Of a DNA stretch of 61,004 nt, positions 286 to 61,004 are shown piece after piece. This DNA is from a virus. How positions within the stretch are numbered: position 1 is the stretch's first letter; each line of letters starts with the position of its first letter. Position numbers and translations under genes: made by a program. The notes below the pieces were generated by a model, which saw only the letters and a program-made list of their open reading frames with translations, was not told where the DNA came from and did no database searches. The stretch lies in IMG/VR virus record IMGVR_UViG_3300042731_003085, positions 1 to 61,004 of that record; one strand, written 5' to 3'.

Positions 286-548
286 AATAATAAATTTTTG
301 ATTATGCTTATACTTCACAATGATAGAATATGTTATCACCGAATGGGAATGCTTGTTAGAGCAATAAACTTTTGTTTACAAAATGTTTTTGCTATGCAAG
401 TATGATAGCATATTGTTTCATTGTAATCTTGCTGCAATCAAAAATATATTGTGAAATGAACATCTTATTTGTATAGCCGTTAAGATGTTGATAGTGAAGA
501 CAATGATTGTAAAGCCAACACCAAACAATTATTTAAGGGGGTGGGATA

Positions 549-644
549 ATGGCAGGTGTGATAGCCCCACCTCTCCAAAAGCGTGAATTTTATCGCAAAA
601 TGCGAAGGCATGAAGCGAAAAGGGTAATAAAACGGCACAGTTGA
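549..644 (+). CDS. possible small basic peptide
   Basis: A 31-codon frame from ATG (549) to TGA (644) encodes a very basic peptide starting MAGVIAPPLQKREFYRK and ending RHS. It is preceded by a purine-rich run (AAGGGGGTGGGATA), one of the few G-rich stretches upstream of a start codon in this genome. There is no recognised family and no operon partner. Such a short frame could occur by chance, so confidence is low. Confidence 0.22.
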   Translation: MAGVIAPPLQKREFYRKMRRHEAKRVIKRHS

Positions 645-860
645 GAAAAAAAAGGCAAAAAAATCTGAGAAAGTGTGACTGCGAAGTGATGGGGTGGGTC
701 TGAAGAAAGTGTTTTTCTAAATTATGTAACTATCCTGATATGTAAGAGAACCCATTTACTCCAGACATTTAACTGCCCCAAACATGTGGCAACTTTTTTA
801 AGCTCTATTAAGTAATTATATAGGTGTGTTAGGCTATTTTTTTTTATGCCACATTTTTAT

Positions 861-868
861 TATATTTG
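861..868 (+). promoter_or_regulatory. Bacteroidetes-type -7 promoter box (TATATTTG)
   Basis: TATATTTG matches the TAnnTTTG consensus of Bacteroidetes primary sigma promoters and is identical to the boxes at 4624 and 41750. No clear -33 TTG is visible. A start near 869-873 would place the hairpin at 888-957 in the 5' leader of the 974-1279 gene and possibly of the GroEL operon. Confidence 0.5.
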
Positions 869-887
869 TTATGAGTTTCATTTGGAC

Positions 888-957
888 AAGTCCAGGTATC
901 TAGATTATGGTTTTGTCTTTTATTTGAATGTTTTTTTCTAATACCTGGGCTTTTTTT
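888..957 (+). terminator. leader hairpin with U-tract, attenuator or terminator
   Basis: Bases 888-903 pair with 938-952: a CCAGGTAT/ATACCTGG core (892-899 with 941-948), extended by TAG/CTA across one bulged C, and at the base by G-C, one G-U and two A-U pairs. The loop is about 34 nt, and GC-TTTTTTT follows. This has the form of an intrinsic terminator, but it sits between a promoter box (861) and the start codon at 974, so it could attenuate that gene or end transcripts arriving from upstream. The long loop is unusual. Confidence 0.5.
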
Positions 958-973
958 AATTAAATCTAATACA

Positions 974-1527: not shown

Positions 1528-3123
1528 ATGATAGAAAAACAAATAACTTTTAAGAATGAAGCCTGGACCAAAATGCTTGATGGGGTTTATACCTTAAATT
1601 CAGCTGTAGGGTCTACATTAGGGCCAAACGGAAAGACAGTTATACTAGAAGATGCTCACGGAAGACCACACGTTACAAAAGATGGTATTACGGTGGCAGA
1701 AAGCATTCTTTTAAAAGATCCAATAGAAAACCTAGCGATGAATACAGTTCGTCAGGCTAGTAAAAAAACAGCCCTTCGGGCTGGAGATGGGACTACTTCT
1801 TCGATTGTACTTTGTAGTTCTATACTTGGATTGATAACTCGAAATGAAATAAGCAACGTGCATCAGTTTAAAAGAGGGATGTATGATGCAAAAGACTTTG
1901 TTCTTAAAAAATTAGATAAGATGAGTTCAAAGCTTAATAAAAAAGAACTAAAAGCAGTTGCATCTATATCTGCAAACAACGATCCATTATTAGGAGGTCT
2001 TATAGCAGATGCTTATCATAAAGTTGGTAAAGACGGGGTAGTAGCAGTTGAAGAGTCTTACAATGAAAAAAGTTATGTTACAATAAAAGAAGGTACTAAA
2101 ATTGATAGAGGCTGGGCATCCCACCACTTAGTCACGGATATTAATAAACGTGAATTTGTTGCTCAGTCTCCCCTTATTTTCATATCGTCTACTGAAATAC
2201 AAAGTGCGCAGCAGATTTTACCTATACTTCAGTATTGTGCTGAAAAAAGTAAACCAATAATCATTGTTGCTGATACCTCTGATGAGTTTCTAGCCACTAT
2301 GATATTAAATAACAACAAAGGAAGGTTCAAAGCTTGTGTTGTAAAGCCAGCAGGAATAGGGTATAAGAGAGATGAATTATTATCAGACCTGGGTATTATG
2401 ACAGGAGCTTCAGTTTTTTCAGAAGCCCAAGGAAATGATTTTGGACAAATAACACCAGAATATTTAGGAGGAGCTGATAAGGTTATTGTGTCTGAAGGCG
2501 AAACTGTATTTTTTGTAGAGCCTGAAGATCCAGAAACAATAAAGACTTTGAAAGATCATTTAGAAAAAGAGATATCGAAAGAAAAAGAAGCAGACAATGA
2601 GTGGCACTTAAGAGATAGGTTGTCGAAGTTGACAGGAGGAGTTGCTACAGTACATGTAGGAGCTTCAACAGAAGTTGAAATGAAGGAGAAGATGGACAGA
2701 GTGGATGATGCAATAAGTGCTACTCGGGCTGCTATGAAGCATGGGGTTGTTCCTGGAGGAGGTTGTGCTTTGTTACATATTTCAAGAGAAGTGACAAAGT
2801 ATTGTGAAGATGCTAATTTTGAAGAACTTGATTCATCTTATTCAAAAGCATGGGAGGTTTTATCAATTGCTTTGGTTGCGCCACTAACAACAATACTTTC
2901 TAATTCTGGAGTTTCTGACAAATCATATACAATTATAGCTAAAAAAATTGTAGAAGATGATTATAAAATCGGTTACAATGCATTAACTAATAAAATAGTT
3001 GATATGTTTGAAGATAAAATATTAGATCCTACAGCAGTAACTAAAAATGTAGTTGAAAACGCTGTAAGTGTTTGTTGCGAACTTATTACAACAGATTGTG
3101 TAATTACAAATGTACGAGCATGA
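1528..3123 (+). CDS. groEL: phage-encoded group I chaperonin (GroEL)
   Basis: 531 aa, near the normal GroEL length. ATP-site residues fall at the same numbers as in E. coli: TLGPNGK at 30-36, KDG with D52, GDGTT at 86-90 with D87, and an aspartate equivalent to D398 at 394 before ATRAA; GVVPGGG is at 406-412. The subunit should form a double ring that folds proteins in the cytoplasm, most likely virion proteins. Two things are odd. The C-terminus ends at TNVRA, without the usual Gly-Gly-Met tail that lines the cavity floor. The apical segment reads DRGWASHHLV where E. coli has DRGYLSPYFI, so several co-chaperonin/substrate-binding hydrophobics differ. It overlaps groES by 4 nt (ATGA). Chaperonin genes in phages are uncommon. 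Confidence 0.97.
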   Translation: MIEKQITFKNEAWTKMLDGVYTLNSAVGSTLGPNGKTVILEDAHGRPHVTKDGITVAESILLKDPIENLAMNTVRQASKKTALRAGDGTTSSIVLCSSILGLITRNEISNVHQFKRGMYDAKDFVLKKLDKMSSKLNKKELKAVASISANNDPLLGGLIADAYHKVGKDGVVAVEESYNEKSYVTIKEGTKIDRGWASHHLVTDINKREFVAQSPLIFISSTEIQSAQQILPILQYCAEKSKPIIIVADTSDEFLATMILNNNKGRFKACVVKPAGIGYKRDELLSDLGIMTGASVFSEAQGNDFGQITPEYLGGADKVIVSEGETVFFVEPEDPETIKTLKDHLEKEISKEKEADNEWHLRDRLSKLTGGVATVHVGASTEVEMKEKMDRVDDAISATRAAMKHGVVPGGGCALLHISREVTKYCEDANFEELDSSYSKAWEVLSIALVAPLTTILSNSGVSDKSYTIIAKKIVEDDYKIGYNALTNKIVDMFEDKILDPTAVTKNVVENAVSVCCELITTDCVITNVRA

Positions 3124-3374: not shown

Positions 3375-4099
3375 TGTACATACCTCTTTTCGAATATGAA
3401 AAAGATAGAATCATTATGGAATCTTCTTTTAGATTCGAAGGAAAGAAATATCTGTTTTTTCCTGAAGGAGTGGAATATTATAGTTTATACAGGACTACAA
3501 GAAAAATAAACTCTATTCAAGAAGTAGAGTACGTGGCGGAAAAATTAAGGTGGCTTAATCCAAAAATTGAATACTCTGTTTTTGTACGCCACATGAAGCA
3601 AATGACAGATAGATCAAACGGACATGTTATTAGAACATACAGCGATAGAAGAATAGATGCAATTTGTGAAGATGTTTGGGAAAAAACTTTAACAAAACCT
3701 TATTGTAGAAAAAAGAGAAAGGTTATCTTTAACCCATCGAAAATGATACCAATTGAAGAGAAACGAAAGATTGTGCAGCAGTTAATTCATCCAAGTATAA
3801 GATTTGAATCATCTGATATATGGAGAGCCTGCAGCCAAATCCAAGGTAAACTTACGATGAAAAAAATCGGAGAAGTCCTTGGTTGTAGTGCACCTACGGT
3901 GCGCAGAAGTTTCGATAATAAGATGTTATTAAATCTTAAGCTTCGAAACAAGGACATAAAAAAGGAATCGGAGTTTCTTAAGTGCAAGCATGCTGTGGCT
4001 GAGATAAAAGACGAAGGTCTACCTGTTACAATGAGGGAACTAAAAAGCAGGGTTTCCGTAAGAGATTACGATGTTTTGAAAAAGGCGGTCAGTCTTTGA
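3374..4099 (+). CDS. helix-turn-helix DNA-binding protein, possible regulator
   Basis: 241 aa; its start overlaps the groES stop as TAATG, so it is translationally coupled to the chaperonins. A second ATG at codon 15 is possible. Residues about 160-182 (KLTMKKIGEVLGCSAPTVRR) form a clear helix-turn-helix. The C-terminus is basic and helical, and the N-terminal 120 residues resemble no family I know. It could be a transcription regulator acting at phage promoters or a DNA-binding packaging/replication factor. The end overlaps the convergent gene 4089-4577 by 11 nt, so no terminator fits between them. Confidence 0.8.
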   Translation: MYIPLFEYEKDRIIMESSFRFEGKKYLFFPEGVEYYSLYRTTRKINSIQEVEYVAEKLRWLNPKIEYSVFVRHMKQMTDRSNGHVIRTYSDRRIDAICEDVWEKTLTKPYCRKKRKVIFNPSKMIPIEEKRKIVQQLIHPSIRFESSDIWRACSQIQGKLTMKKIGEVLGCSAPTVRRSFDNKMLLNLKLRNKDIKKESEFLKCKHAVAEIKDEGLPVTMRELKSRVSVRDYDVLKKAVSL

Positions 4100-4577
4100 T
4101 TTTTCGATTCATCTTTTTTATTGCCATTCTATAAACCCTGTCAGTATAGGTTGTGCCCTTCATGACGGGGTTTATTCTTGGGTTTTCAGAAATTTTTTCT
4201 TCCAGTAACAACCTCTTATACACCAAGTTACATATTCTGGCAGATTTTACAGATAGCTCGTATATTGGTTTTCTATTAGCTACTTCATTTTTTTTTCTCC
4301 AAACATTTATAAATTTATTTTGTTTTAAATTCCAAAAACGATTACGATCCCAATGCATTACGTTTGCATATTCTTTAAATTTATCCATGTTAAATTTACC
4401 TTCATCATAAAGAAAAAGAAGCATTTCCAAATCAGATTCAGATAAATTATATTTTCTTTTTACATAATACTTTATAATCCTCCAATATTTGAGAAAATTA
4501 TATTTTCTTTCTTTTTCATATGCTATATGATATTTATCGGAAGCTTTTTGTCGAATCCTTTTCGCTGGTCTTTTCAA
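4089..4577 (-). CDS. basic winged-helix-like protein
   Basis: 162 aa, transcribed leftwards; the only available start giving the full frame is TTG at 4577, with an in-frame stop just upstream (4584-4586). The protein is basic (MKRPAKRIRQKA). Residues about 45-110 (LSESDLEMLLFLYDEGKF, then WNLKQNKFINVWRK) resemble a MarR-like winged helix, and its two ends are Lys/Arg-rich. A Bacteroidetes-type box (TATTTTTG) lies 21-28 nt upstream, so it probably has its own promoter, divergent from that of 4636. Gene order suggests a regulator opposing the chaperonin/HTH operon, but the function is inferred. Confidence 0.75.
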   Translation of the reverse strand: MKRPAKRIRQKASDKYHIAYEKERKYNFLKYWRIIKYYVKRKYNLSESDLEMLLFLYDEGKFNMDKFKEYANVMHWDRNRFWNLKQNKFINVWRKKNEVANRKPIYELSVKSARICNLVYKRLLLEEKISENPRINPVMKGTTYTDRVYRMAIKKMNRKIKD

Positions 4578-54600: not shown

Positions 54601-54858
54601 TTACGAATTATTTTTTAATCTATTATAAATGTCTAAATATAAGATCCATATAGCTTTTTCTGCTTCCTTCTGTTTTTTATAAAGAACCTTACCTGTTTTG
54701 ACTATACCTTTATAATCTAACTCAACCATGAATTCTTTCCCAAACCTTACTATATAGGCCTTTATGTCGTTTTCAAAACAATAACTTGTTGCCTCATACA
54801 TTTCTTTTGATGGAGCAAAGTATTTAATGTTTTTAGAAAATAGAGTCTTGGATTTCAT
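54601..54858 (-). CDS. 85-aa hypothetical protein
   Basis: Starts MKSKTLFSKNIKYFAPSKEM and ends KKQKEAEKAIWILYLDIYNR-LKNNS; mixed alpha/beta with a beta hairpin (AYIVRFGKEFMVELDYKGI). It overlaps the end of the primase-helicase gene by 26 nt. No family recognised. Confidence 0.68.
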   Translation of the reverse strand: MKSKTLFSKNIKYFAPSKEMYEATSYCFENDIKAYIVRFGKEFMVELDYKGIVKTGKVLYKKQKEAEKAIWILYLDIYNRLKNNS

Positions 54859-56620
54859 TTAATTCTTTATCAATTAATACAGTTTGTTTAATCTTATTTG
54901 ATTTATTTTTTAACCAATTGCTATTATCCCACTGTGGTATTTCTTCTTTGATGCTATCATACCTGCCATTGTTAACATTCCACACAAAGTTACAATGAGC
55001 ATCATTTGTTCCTAAATTCGCAAACTTTACTTTTAAAACTTTTATGGTTACTAAATTATTTTGCAGTCCATCTTCGGTCCTATCCCTATGAACCAATATT
55101 CCATGAGGACTCATGTCATAAAATTCCCCTCCACCTTTTACATCATAGAATGTTGGTGGTTGTAACTTACCATCTATCTTTTCAGGTTTGGTCGGGTGAG
55201 CAACCAATATTACTAATATGTCGTGTTTTTTACAAAAGCTGTCAATCTTATTTAGATATTCATTTGTATAGTCATTTATGCTTAAGTTTTTACCATCTTT
55301 ATATCTGACTTTATTGTATGGGTCAATCACAAGGCATCGTATCCCTTTTCTTTTAACAAGCTCTTCCCCTTTTTTTAAAACTTTGTCTAAATCGTAACCA
55401 TCTTCATAATTTATATGAAAAAAATTATTACTTACATATTCTACAGTATTTGACCATTCTGTTTTTTTAACTTGTGTTTCATCAGGTTTGTTTCCATAAA
55501 ACTTTCTAACTATTTTATCAACATGAAGATAAGCTGGAAAGTTCTCCGTTGAAGCGTATGCGACTTTCCATCCGTGTAACATATTATAACCAACACACAT
55601 TTGATCAACAAAATCAGATTTACCAGAAGATGGAAATCCTGTAACAACAATAAATTGTTTTGTGTAAGTGGTAAATATACTATCAAACTCTTTTAGTCCA
55701 ACACCAAAACCTTTCTGATGTCCATTCAAATAAAAATTTTCTAAATCGTTTGCAACATCTTTAGCTGTGACTACGTTTTCTAATGGACATTGAGGAGCCA
55801 TAACGATTGCTTCTCTCAAAGATTCTTTCCCATATTTTAATAAATATTCGTTTGCATCCTTACAATCTTTTAAATTCACAAGATAACATATCTCAGCTCC
55901 AAACCTCCTGATTAGTTCAGCCTGTCCTTTTCGCCCTGCTTCGTCATTATCAACGCAGAGATATATCTTTTTTTTATTTTCAAAGAACTCATAGTAGTCA
56001 GATAAAAAATCAAGATTTATATTTCCTTGAGAAGTAAAGCCATTTGGAACACTGATGCAATGTTTTATTCCAGACTCTATTACAGAAGCTACATCCATTT
56101 CGCCTTCAACAATAACCACTTGTTCTGTAAATCTTATCGAATCTAAATTGTAAAATATTTTCTCAGCATCTTTAACCATTTTAAAATTTTTCTGCCCATC
56201 TCTAAATTTTGTGTTTATTATTTGAGAATCTAAATAATAATTAAATTGAATTGTGTGACATTCTTGCTTTGTTTGTGGCATCCACTCTAATCCATCACTA
56301 ATTCTTAAATATCTTATGGTATCAATAGATATGCCCCTGCTTTTAAACCAAGCTATTACTTTTTCATTTGGATCGTTAAATTCTTTTGGCTGAGGTCTGA
56401 TGTATGTTTTAGTTTGATTTTTTTTTTCATATTCGTGCATTTGCATAACGCTTCCACAATGTTGACAGGTAGCAAGAGCTCTTTCCCAGTCAAGCATAAC
56501 ACACTTGTCATTCTTTTTCTTTCTGGTATGAGAACACAAAGGACATTTGTCTGTTTTAGCATCCTGTTTGAATCCATATTGATTATACGTTTTTATTGTA
56601 AACCCGTTTATTTCGTTCAT
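54833..56620 (-). CDS. primase-helicase (T7 gp4-like bifunctional protein)
   Basis: 595 aa. N-terminal zinc ribbon with C26-x2-C29 and C52-x2-C55; TOPRIM primase core with VIVEGEMD (169-176) and CVDNDEAGRKG (222-232); RecA-like helicase domain with Walker A GFPSSGKS (328-335), Walker B CLVIDP (429-434), VAHPTKP (473-479) and KGGGEFYDMSPHGILVHRD (495-513). It unwinds the fork and makes primers. Because no phage DNA polymerase is visible, it would have to work with the host polymerase. Its start overlaps the upstream gene by 4 nt. Confidence 0.94.
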   Translation of the reverse strand: MNEINGFTIKTYNQYGFKQDAKTDKCPLCSHTRKKKNDKCVMLDWERALATCQHCGSVMQMHEYEKKNQTKTYIRPQPKEFNDPNEKVIAWFKSRGISIDTIRYLRISDGLEWMPQTKQECHTIQFNYYLDSQIINTKFRDGQKNFKMVKDAEKIFYNLDSIRFTEQVVIVEGEMDVASVIESGIKHCISVPNGFTSQGNINLDFLSDYYEFFENKKKIYLCVDNDEAGRKGQAELIRRFGAEICYLVNLKDCKDANEYLLKYGKESLREAIVMAPQCPLENVVTAKDVANDLENFYLNGHQKGFGVGLKEFDSIFTTYTKQFIVVTGFPSSGKSDFVDQMCVGYNMLHGWKVAYASTENFPAYLHVDKIVRKFYGNKPDETQVKKTEWSNTVEYVSNNFFHINYEDGYDLDKVLKKGEELVKRKGIRCLVIDPYNKVRYKDGKNLSINDYTNEYLNKIDSFCKKHDILVILVAHPTKPEKIDGKLQPPTFYDVKGGGEFYDMSPHGILVHRDRTEDGLQNNLVTIKVLKVKFANLGTNDAHCNFVWNVNNGRYDSIKEEIPQWDNSNWLKNKSNKIKQTVLIDKELNEIQDSIF

Positions 56621-57330
56621 TGTTTTATAATCTTTATTAGTTTGAAATTGAAACCATCCACATCATAAGTTTTTTTTGCACGTTCATATTGTTCTTTTGT
56701 ACCAGTTAATAAAGCCTGACCGTTCCACTGAAATTGGTATATGTCTTGGCTTTTTACTTCATGTTCTTTTACCTTTTGATAACGAAGCCAATTTGTAAAA
56801 TGCGTCTTGAATTCTTTGAAACTTGGCTTACGATCATCTGATGACTCAATATGTTTTAAAAATCTTTCGAGCATAAACTTCATTTGCCCTACTGTAATTT
56901 TATTATGCATGCATAGCATTTCCTGCCATGCAATATCTTTTAAAGCCATTCGTAAAAACATTTTATTGTTGTTCTCATGCTTGACTAAAAAATCTGTAGC
57001 TATAATATCTGCTTGATAGTTTTCATAATTTAATAGAGTGATTTTTGTAAATCGTTTTGATTTTACTGTGTCAATCTCTCCGGTCTGACTTAATTTTGTT
57101 AAGGAAGTTCTGATTTGTGAAACAGTCATACCAAGATCTTCAGCCAACTTTCTGTAAGAAGTCATAACCTCTCCCCTTGTGACTAATGCGTCATTTTGTA
57201 AGCATTTATCTTGGCATGCTGTTATTAATAAATGAAAAAATACTGATTTAGTTAATGGCTCCTTGTACCACCTCCATTTCAAGATTTTCGAATGTATCTT
57301 GATTGGATGTTTCGTTGTTTCTTTTTTCAT
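56617..57330 (-). CDS. DnaD-like/replisome organiser winged-helix protein
   Basis: 237 aa. The N-terminal 110 residues (IHSKILKWRWYKEPLTKSVF, then VMTSYRKLAEDLGMTVSQIR and FTKITLLNYENYQ) match the winged-helix N-terminal domain of phage replisome organisers. The C-terminal part (FKEFKTHFTNWLRYQKVKE) resembles the end of DnaD-like domains. It may load the primase-helicase encoded next to it. It overlaps the DnaA-like gene upstream by 83 nt, an unusually long overlap; no later ATG would keep the IHSKILKW motif. Confidence 0.82.
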   Translation of the reverse strand: MKKETTKHPIKIHSKILKWRWYKEPLTKSVFFHLLITACQDKCLQNDALVTRGEVMTSYRKLAEDLGMTVSQIRTSLTKLSQTGEIDTVKSKRFTKITLLNYENYQADIIATDFLVKHENNNKMFLRMALKDIAWQEMLCMHNKITVGQMKFMLERFLKHIESSDDRKPSFKEFKTHFTNWLRYQKVKEHEVKSQDIYQFQWNGQALLTGTKEQYERAKKTYDVDGFNFKLIKIIKQ

Positions 57331-57823
57331 TTAAAGTTTTGATTAAAAAGTCCACCTCTTCTGAATCATTTCTCTCACACAAATTATAAGTTAAATGTGC
57401 GAGCATTTCATGATAATGTAAAGTAGGGTTGTATGAATCTAATTGTGTACTATCCATATTTTTTATAAGATCTGAAATTTCTTTATCAGCTTTTTCCATA
57501 TGTGAATCGTACATTTTATCTACATCTCTTCTTCCATCTATCAATCTTACCGCATGTAATACAGAAGCATGATCCCATAGCTCCTTTATATCCCACAGTG
57601 TTGCGCAACTGCCTATTTCATTCAGAGAAATTTTTAATCCATTCATAGATCTGACATTTCTCCTTATAAAATACCATGCTTCTTGTCTAGCTTCTACTAA
57701 AGGCCTCTTTCTTCCTCTCTTGAATAAAGCATGAGGGAAGAGCCCGTGCCATTCACAGACTCTTTCCACTACAGCCTTGACCTTTTCGTTTCTTTTTCCT
57801 ATTATATTAGAAAGGGAGGTCAT
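57248..57823 (-). CDS. DnaA domain IV-like DNA-binding protein
   Basis: 191 aa. Residues about 35-97 follow the DnaA C-terminal domain: RKRPLVEARQEAWYFIRR (38-55), SLNEIG (66-71), and WDHASVLHAVRLIDG (83-97), where DHASVLHA replaces the DHTTVLHA signature that reads the DnaA box. No AAA+ domain is present, so it is only the DNA-reading part plus a helical tail (MEKADKEISDLIKNMDSTQL). It may mark the phage origin for the DnaD-like and helicase proteins, or modulate host DnaA. A perfect DnaA box lies at 60811-60819. Confidence 0.82.
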   Translation of the reverse strand: MTSLSNIIGKRNEKVKAVVERVCEWHGLFPHALFKRGRKRPLVEARQEAWYFIRRNVRSMNGLKISLNEIGSCATLWDIKELWDHASVLHAVRLIDGRRDVDKMYDSHMEKADKEISDLIKNMDSTQLDSYNPTLHYHEMLAHLTYNLCERNDSEEVDFLIKTLNEKRNNETSNQDTFENLEMEVVQGAIN

Positions 57824-60417: not shown

Positions 60418-60777
60418 TTATTTAATTTTATTCTCGTTTTCTATTCTTTTTATTTCTTCAAGTTCTTTTTCATCTGAGTCACCCATATAATGAACATCAT
60501 TTTTTTCATCATATAAATAGTATTTCTTATCTTCACATACAAGATTAGCTAAAGCATATTCTAAATCAACCCACTGATCTGATCCCCATAAAAGTATTTG
60601 TGAAGTTTCATCAAAATCTTTGTTGTGTATGTCGTTGCCATTTTCATCGCCAACGTACTCGCCCACAAAAATACTATCGGGGCGTTTCCAATAGTCGTTT
60701 TTACCATAGGAAAACTTAATTTGTTTACCTATTAGTTTTTCTAATTCTGAATAGTAAAGTTTATTTATATGTTTCAT
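60418..60777 (-). CDS. first gene of the early operon, hypothetical
   Basis: 119 aa. Starts MKHINKLYYSELEKLIGKQI with KFSYGKNDYWKRPDSIFVGE and VGDENGNDIHNKDFDETSQI; acidic and aromatic-rich, ending in a Lys/Glu helix (DEKELEEIKRIENENKIK). No family is recognised. As the promoter-proximal gene on the replication strand it would be among the first proteins made, a position often used for host-takeover factors; this is inference. Confidence 0.72.
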   Translation of the reverse strand: MKHINKLYYSELEKLIGKQIKFSYGKNDYWKRPDSIFVGEYVGDENGNDIHNKDFDETSQILLWGSDQWVDLEYALANLVCEDKKYYLYDEKNDVHYMGDSDEKELEEIKRIENENKIK

Positions 60778-60795
60778 AAATCTGAATATTTTATG

Positions 60796-60826
60796 TAAAT
60801 ATAATCAATGTTATCCACAAATACAA
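60796..60826 (-). promoter_or_regulatory. early operon promoter (TTG-N20-TATATTTA)
   Basis: On the minus strand TTG (60824-60826) and TATATTTA (60796-60803) are separated by 20 nt, fitting the Bacteroidetes -33/-7 layout with one mismatch in the last -7 base. The predicted start is near 60791, 14 nt before ATG 60777. The DnaA box lies in the spacer. Confidence 0.45.
60811..60819 (+). promoter_or_regulatory. consensus DnaA box (TTATCCACA)
   Basis: TTATCCACA is a perfect match to the high-affinity DnaA box. It lies between the -33 and -7 elements of the early promoter and about 50 nt from the GC-rich tandem repeats, so DnaA (host, or the phage DnaA-like protein) could both act on the origin and control the operon. 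Confidence 0.6.
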
Positions 60827-60870
60827 GTTAATAAGCATTAATTTTTATAAACTCGCCACATTCGACACTG

Positions 60871-60900
60871 CCCTGCGTCGCCCTGCGTCGCCCTGCGTCG
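60871..60900 (+). repeat. three perfect 10-bp tandem repeats (CCCTGCGTCG)
   Basis: CCCTGCGTCG occurs three times without interruption, 80% G+C in a strongly AT-rich genome, and is followed by CGCG. Copies one helical turn apart are typical of protein-binding iterons. No coding frame is involved. Confidence 0.95.
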
Positions 60901-60925
60901 CGCGTGATGATAGTGAATCAACATA

Positions 60926-60948
60926 AGATGTAACAAAAAGTTACATCT
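60926..60948. repeat. perfect 9-bp inverted repeat
   Basis: AGATGTAAC, AAAAA loop, GTTACATCT. Followed rightwards by CTTATTTTAATT, so it could also be a weak terminator for rightward transcripts, although no rightward gene precedes it. An origin-associated cruciform or protein site is an alternative. Confidence 0.85.
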
Positions 60949-61004
60949 CTTATTTTAATTACTTAATAAGTAAATAAACAAAGTAATAAGTATAATAATA
61001 CATA

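Follow-up and report, generated by a model that had tools for sequence, protein, structure and literature searches.

Positions 60778-61004 of a virus record bring together short perfect repeats, an exact DnaA box, a hairpin and AT-rich DNA, and the question that they raise is whether replication of the phage starts here, as the original prediction proposed, or whether these elements serve the expression of the neighbouring genes. The window referred to below is the whole stretch of DNA analysed, the 61,004 bases of that record. Judged from its sequence, the region, which lies where one leftward operon of a Bacteroidetes phage of about 65 kb ends and the next begins, is a control region.

The phage and its relatives

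The region is internal and not a genome end. No end repeats were found in the 61,004-base window, and contig L038, which is nearly identical to it (99.9% over the window tail and 99.5% over its head), links the end of the window to its start via 3.86 kb of additional sequence. The genome size is accordingly about 64.9 kb; that of one relative, G004, is 64,835 bp. The phage encodes groEL, a terminase and a portal protein. Its terminase matches those of Flavobacterium phages, Cellulophaga phages and podovirus ctfjg026, so the host very probably belongs to the Bacteroidetes. The region is present in five phages: the window phage (window/L038), G001 (L004/L010), G002 (L005/L017), G005 (L016) and G004 (L013/L014); in a sixth phage, G003 (L012), the contig stops before it. 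Searches with a 569-aa gene and an ERF profile yielded no clade members beyond these six, and the pattern CCCTNNGTCG...TGATAGTGAA gave, among viral contigs outside the clade, just scattered matches in unrelated sequence.

Anatomy of the region

Followed in the direction of transcription, the region would consist of a terminator hairpin after a gene for a 29-aa peptide, TGATAGTGAA, a 10-bp array and a promoter, TTG-N20-TATATTtAC, from which the replication operon would start (Table 1).

Table 1. Positions of features in the window
Feature	Position	Strand	Remarks
Divergent intergenic region	340-973	.	Gene direction and GC skew switch; TGATAGTGAA at 489-498; GCCACATTTTTATTATATTTG at 848-868
GroEL-like chaperonin, phage-encoded	1528-3123	+	
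Primase-helicase	54833-56620	-	
DnaD-like helicase loader/initiator	56617-57330	-	
Stand-alone DnaA domain IV-like protein	57248-57823	-	191 aa; without ATPase domain
First operon gene below the promoter	60418-60777	-	119 aa
Bacteroidetes-type replication-operon promoter (predicted)	60795-60826	-	TTG at 60824-60826, 20-nt spacer, TATATTTAC at 60795-60803
Perfect DnaA box TTATCCACA	60811-60819	+	Within the promoter spacer; absent in two of five phages
GCCACATT	60855-60862	+	Kept in four of five phages; second site at 848-855, before the rightward promoter
Candidate iterons/operator sites, three perfect 10-bp CCCTGCGTCG	60871-60900	+	Start-to-start distances 10 and 10
TGATAGTGAA	60908-60917	+	Adjoins the array; invariant in five of five phages; copy of a genome-wide one-stranded motif
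Hairpin, probable terminator	60926-60948	-	AGATGTAAC-N5-GTTACATCT; follows the upstream gene's stop codon
Gene for 29-aa membrane peptide, 3' part	60955-61004	-	Cut by the window end; the "AT-rich end"

The array far exceeds chance. CCCTNNGTCG occurs three times in the window against 0.26 expected, same-lag runs reach 22 nt, whereas none in 60 simulated windows (GC at least 50%) exceeds 11, and a tandem scan of the 61 kb returned this array as the sole one. Its GC content is 81%, against 34% for the window, and the earlier description of three perfect repeats in an AT-rich genome is accurate. The array has the mark of an iteron origin, at least three clustered short direct repeats above chance, and it is flanked on both sides by AT-rich DNA (17-24% GC), one side of which is conserved coding sequence. 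RNA folding of the array gave a z of about 0, which suggests that it acts as DNA; an RNA element was also discarded on the grounds that an Rfam search of the window gave no match that reached the gathering threshold, and a part of a protein on the grounds that no ORF of at least 60 aa runs across the array. The repeats are most likely same-face sites, about one helical turn apart, at which one phage DNA-binding protein would bind.

Two other elements had been read as signs of an origin. The perfect hairpin does exist, but it is terminator-like: the minus strand folds better (z of -4.5), a stable hairpin is found in four of the five phages (formed by other sequences in G002, G005 and G004, and missing in G001), and a clear T tract follows it in G005 and G004 only. 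It probably terminates the upstream operon. The end of the window is AT-rich (17% GC), as had been claimed, but AT-rich repeats explain this stretch less well than conserved coding sequence does: the peptide (MPRNKFSDIFFN...), which is unannotated, is exactly 29 aa long in all five phages, with the full gene in L038, L004, L005, L016 and L013.

Predicted promoter and DnaA box

TTG-N20-TATATTtAC has one exact match in the window and is among the best-conserved parts of the alignment, invariant or nearly so in the five phages. It resembles the flavobacterial TAnnTTTG sigma-A promoter, from whose consensus TATATTTAC departs in having A in place of the last G, the upstream TTG being present. This predicted minus-strand promoter sits between the array and the first operon gene, in agreement with the proposal that the region heads the replication operon.

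An exact DnaA box is expected 0.78 times per 61 kb on both strands and 0.003 times per 227 bp; a single perfect box is uncommon, though not remarkable. The broader class TTWTNCACA is not enriched (5 found against 11.4 expected). The corresponding site reads TTATCCACA, TTATTCACA, TTATTCACA, TTTTCAACA and TTATTAACA in the five phages, the box having been lost in G004 and G005. A DnaA/oriC-type origin has several boxes kept in relatives, and a single, twice-lost box was found here; the exact box stands, but its position in a promoter spacer and its losses argue against it as an origin sign. A DnaA-type protein bound at this site would block transcription. The box is also consistent with transcription control alone, in which a repressor or activator at the 10-bp sites would time the replication operon and replication would start elsewhere, for example at 340-973.

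The array in related phages

Conservation of the repeats in relatives had been suggested as a check on the prediction, and the array is indeed in place in the four relatives, with diverged units. The window phage and L038 have three copies of CCCTGCGTCG; G001 has two pairs of CCCTGCGTCG/CCCTACGTCG, spaced by 30 bp; G002 has three copies of CCCTGAGTCG with one degenerate copy; G005 has CCCTAGGTCG/CCCTCGGTCG and one degenerate copy; and G004 has the loosest array, based on TCGCCCT. The unit CCCT-NN-GTCG is kept in three of the four relatives with differing NN, the fourth having the looser version only. Copies are more alike within a phage than between phages, and their number varies. Both features suit a neutral tandem duplication without function, but the position of the array is identical in the four diverged relatives, and CCCT and GTCG at the borders of the unit persist, as for the most part does the 10-bp phase, where the surrounding DNA has fallen to 67-85% identity; a neutral duplication is highly improbable. 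The likeness within each phage, together with the kept CCCT/GTCG frame, would rather fit sites of one protein homogenised by tandem exchange.

Proteins of the replication operon

The replication proteins are as had been described. In profile comparisons the DnaA domain IV-like protein matches solved DnaA structures (1L8Q/2HCB, E 8.6e-9), as well as a complex with the DnaA box (1J1V, 9.7e-8), and it has the helix-turn-helix profile and the D-H-x-[ST]-V-L-H signature by which domain IV was recognized. PF08299 is matched by all seven members of the family, although the window protein scores 28.4, just below the Pfam cut-off of 31.5. It is not a full-length DnaA, a protein that has an AAA+ ATPase domain: DnaA models matched in their C-terminal part only. 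An AlphaFold model of this protein (pLDDT 55) was set aside. The DnaD-like protein and the primase-helicase were likewise confirmed. DnaA-IV proteins are present in L076 and MW202828, in which the array is absent, and the array is therefore not a universal DnaA-IV site. L076 (NZMJ01000013.1, 64,653 bp) is assigned to a Maricaulis MAG, where it seems to be a phage genome binned by mistake; its replication module includes a 60% identical primase-helicase, a DnaA-IV and a DnaD-like protein, and 9-bp in-frame repeats lie at 4084-4115, in the corresponding gap.

Origin or operator

The array immediately precedes the predicted promoter from which the DnaA-IV, DnaD-like and primase-helicase genes would be transcribed, which favours an origin; its distance of about 3.1 kb to the DnaA-IV gene, and its place outside any initiator gene, speak against one. 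A GC-skew switch at the region, another proposed check, did not materialize. The cumulative skew turns 4-5 kb from the array, where transcription diverges, a test confounded by gene direction, and third-codon-position skew has mixed signs on both sides of the array. The divergent region at which the skew turns is conserved, as is the element TGTGATAGCC within it, and its GCCACATTTTTATTATATTTG resembles a rightward promoter.

Sister lineages provided further evidence. A look at the 1 kb that precedes the primase-helicase gene in 45 other loci showed short tandem arrays in 6 of them (5 independent) against 0.43 expected; arrays at these loci were already known when the comparison was set up, so the contrast is somewhat overstated. 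Among the independent arrays, four of five lie within a DnaD/O-like gene and the fifth (L098) lies outside called ORFs; the units are 11 bp in two of the four, a length that repeats in the encoded protein would not produce. These five independent arrays support an iteron habit. Against an origin, no array lies upstream of the primase-helicase in the closer sister loci (50-60% identity).

The same observations bear on a role as operator only. The array has a probable terminator on one side and a strongly conserved predicted promoter on the other, GCCACATT is common to the array region and the rightward promoter, and the skew turns at the divergent region, all of which would suit such a role; yet no second copy of the array was found at any other promoter of the window, the tandem arrays of sister lineages are at initiator genes and not at promoters, and no cognate regulator has been identified. 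A pure operator is a distinct possibility, if a somewhat doubtful one.

From the anatomy, conservation and protein families observed, we infer as the likeliest reading a control region that doubles as an origin of the SPP1 oriR kind. An initiator, for which the DnaA domain IV-like and the DnaD-like proteins are candidates, would bind the 10-bp units as iterons and assemble there, the AT-rich DNA beside the array would open, and the DnaD-like protein would load the primase-helicase. Such a dual role is plausible and close to evenly balanced, though unproven. What survives of the proposed initiator-iteron system are the proteins, the conservation of the array and the sister arrays, while the DnaA box, the hairpin and the AT-rich repeats have better explanations and the GC skew does not speak for it. 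The candidate measures 230 bp and has five natural variants that differ mainly at two site positions, which makes it suitable for binding and plasmid tests.

A one-stranded motif beside the array

TGATAGTGA(A) occurs in the window at 489, 32279, 44695, 53635 and 60908, always on the plus strand, and also in G001, G002, G004 and G005. Among the 9-mers of three diverged genomes, none exceeds its expectation as strongly as TGATAGTGA (23 copies against 1.28 expected, none in reverse). Leftward-gene territory of the five phages holds 23 copies against about 0.3 expected (about 80-fold, none in reverse), and the remainder of these genomes 13 against about 1.05, counts that are not independent across phages because some sites are shared by descent; the motif is enriched in each genome alone, for example in G001 (7 against 0.1). 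In leftward territory all copies are opposite the coding strand or between genes, and codon usage does not account for those opposite genes. The motif keeps its orientation across both the array and the strand switch, and copies cluster between the two in G001 and G004. Beyond the clade the motif is rare (3 and 2 copies in about 1 Mb of loci), and it is not enriched in 247 Bacteroidia genomes. A host Chi or KOPS reading was set aside since none of the sampled Bacteroidia genomes comes near the phage density, in a sample that may miss the host.

This one-strandedness points to some strand-reading machine in these phages, and the candidates are systems that read direction, among them packaging, recombination and unidirectional replication. 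The region, array included, might be a site at which packaging, recombination or some other strand-reading process lands or takes its direction, marked by a motif that is invariant beside the array, over-represented, one-stranded and densest in leftward-gene territory; this is very unlikely, given that other copies of TGATAGTGA have no array and that no terminase gene is close by. A broader scheme, in which the ATPase-less DnaA-IV protein would act as initiator on CCCT-NN-GTCG iterons that evolve fast, and in which this machine or a partner of it would read TGATAGTGA genome-wide as a direction mark, is unlikely.

Comparison with known systems

The DnaA-trio, or BUS, consists of at least three triplets with a middle A next to a DnaA box (PMC8287927). 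The region resembles it in the succession of DnaA box, GC-rich DNA, trinucleotide-like GATGATAGTGAA and AT-rich DNA. The likeness was rejected: the triplets of GATGATAGTGAA (TGA TGA TAG TGA) do not fit the definition by eye, they are removed from the DnaA box by about 90 nt that include the array, and the motif recurs genome-wide.

Among Bacteroidetes phages, Cellulophaga phi13:2 and phi19:3 (Pachyviridae) likewise carry, among their replication genes, one for a stand-alone DnaA domain IV-like protein, annotated "DnaA protein", whose product is 26-36% identical to that of the window over half the protein. These two phages carry five to six copies of the 12-bp repeat AGTAACAGATAC (L052:10021-10082 in phi13:2 and L053:10163-10237 in phi19:3); unlike the array of the window, the repeats are inside the gene beside an annotated DNA replication protein. 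Podovirus ctfjg026 (MW202828, circular, 60,850 bp) has a terminase that is 66.5% identical, groEL and groES, and a DnaA-like gene behind a TAnnTTTG-type promoter, but it has no array near that gene and no TGATAGTGA. The literature searched contained no mapped origin of a Bacteroidetes phage with a lone DnaA DNA-binding domain.

Lambda-type origins lie inside the initiator gene. Sister arrays with units of 11-12 bp, candidate origins, follow this plan, being tied to the DnaD/O-like gene upstream of the primase-helicase (L034:837-871 and L035:8489-8523, L088:1500-1529, L097:417-452 and L102:1345-1371). Iterons of this kind were sought in the DnaD-like and DnaA-IV genes of the window, where no repeats were found; the array is intergenic and lies about 3.5 kb further upstream of the DnaD-like gene.

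SPP1 oriR, with direct repeats and AT-rich DNA in an intergenic position, is the precedent of a working origin (PMC6316719), and both oriR and oriL use gp38, gp39 and gp40 as phage initiator, loader and helicase (PMC6316719). The region is like oriR in its intergenic direct repeats beside AT-rich DNA, its surrounding transcription signals and its distance from the initiator gene. It differs from SPP1 in that its origin is putative, its units are GC-rich and 10 bp long, its helicase is fused to a primase, and the part of gp38 would be played by a candidate initiator that is DnaA-IV and/or DnaD-like.
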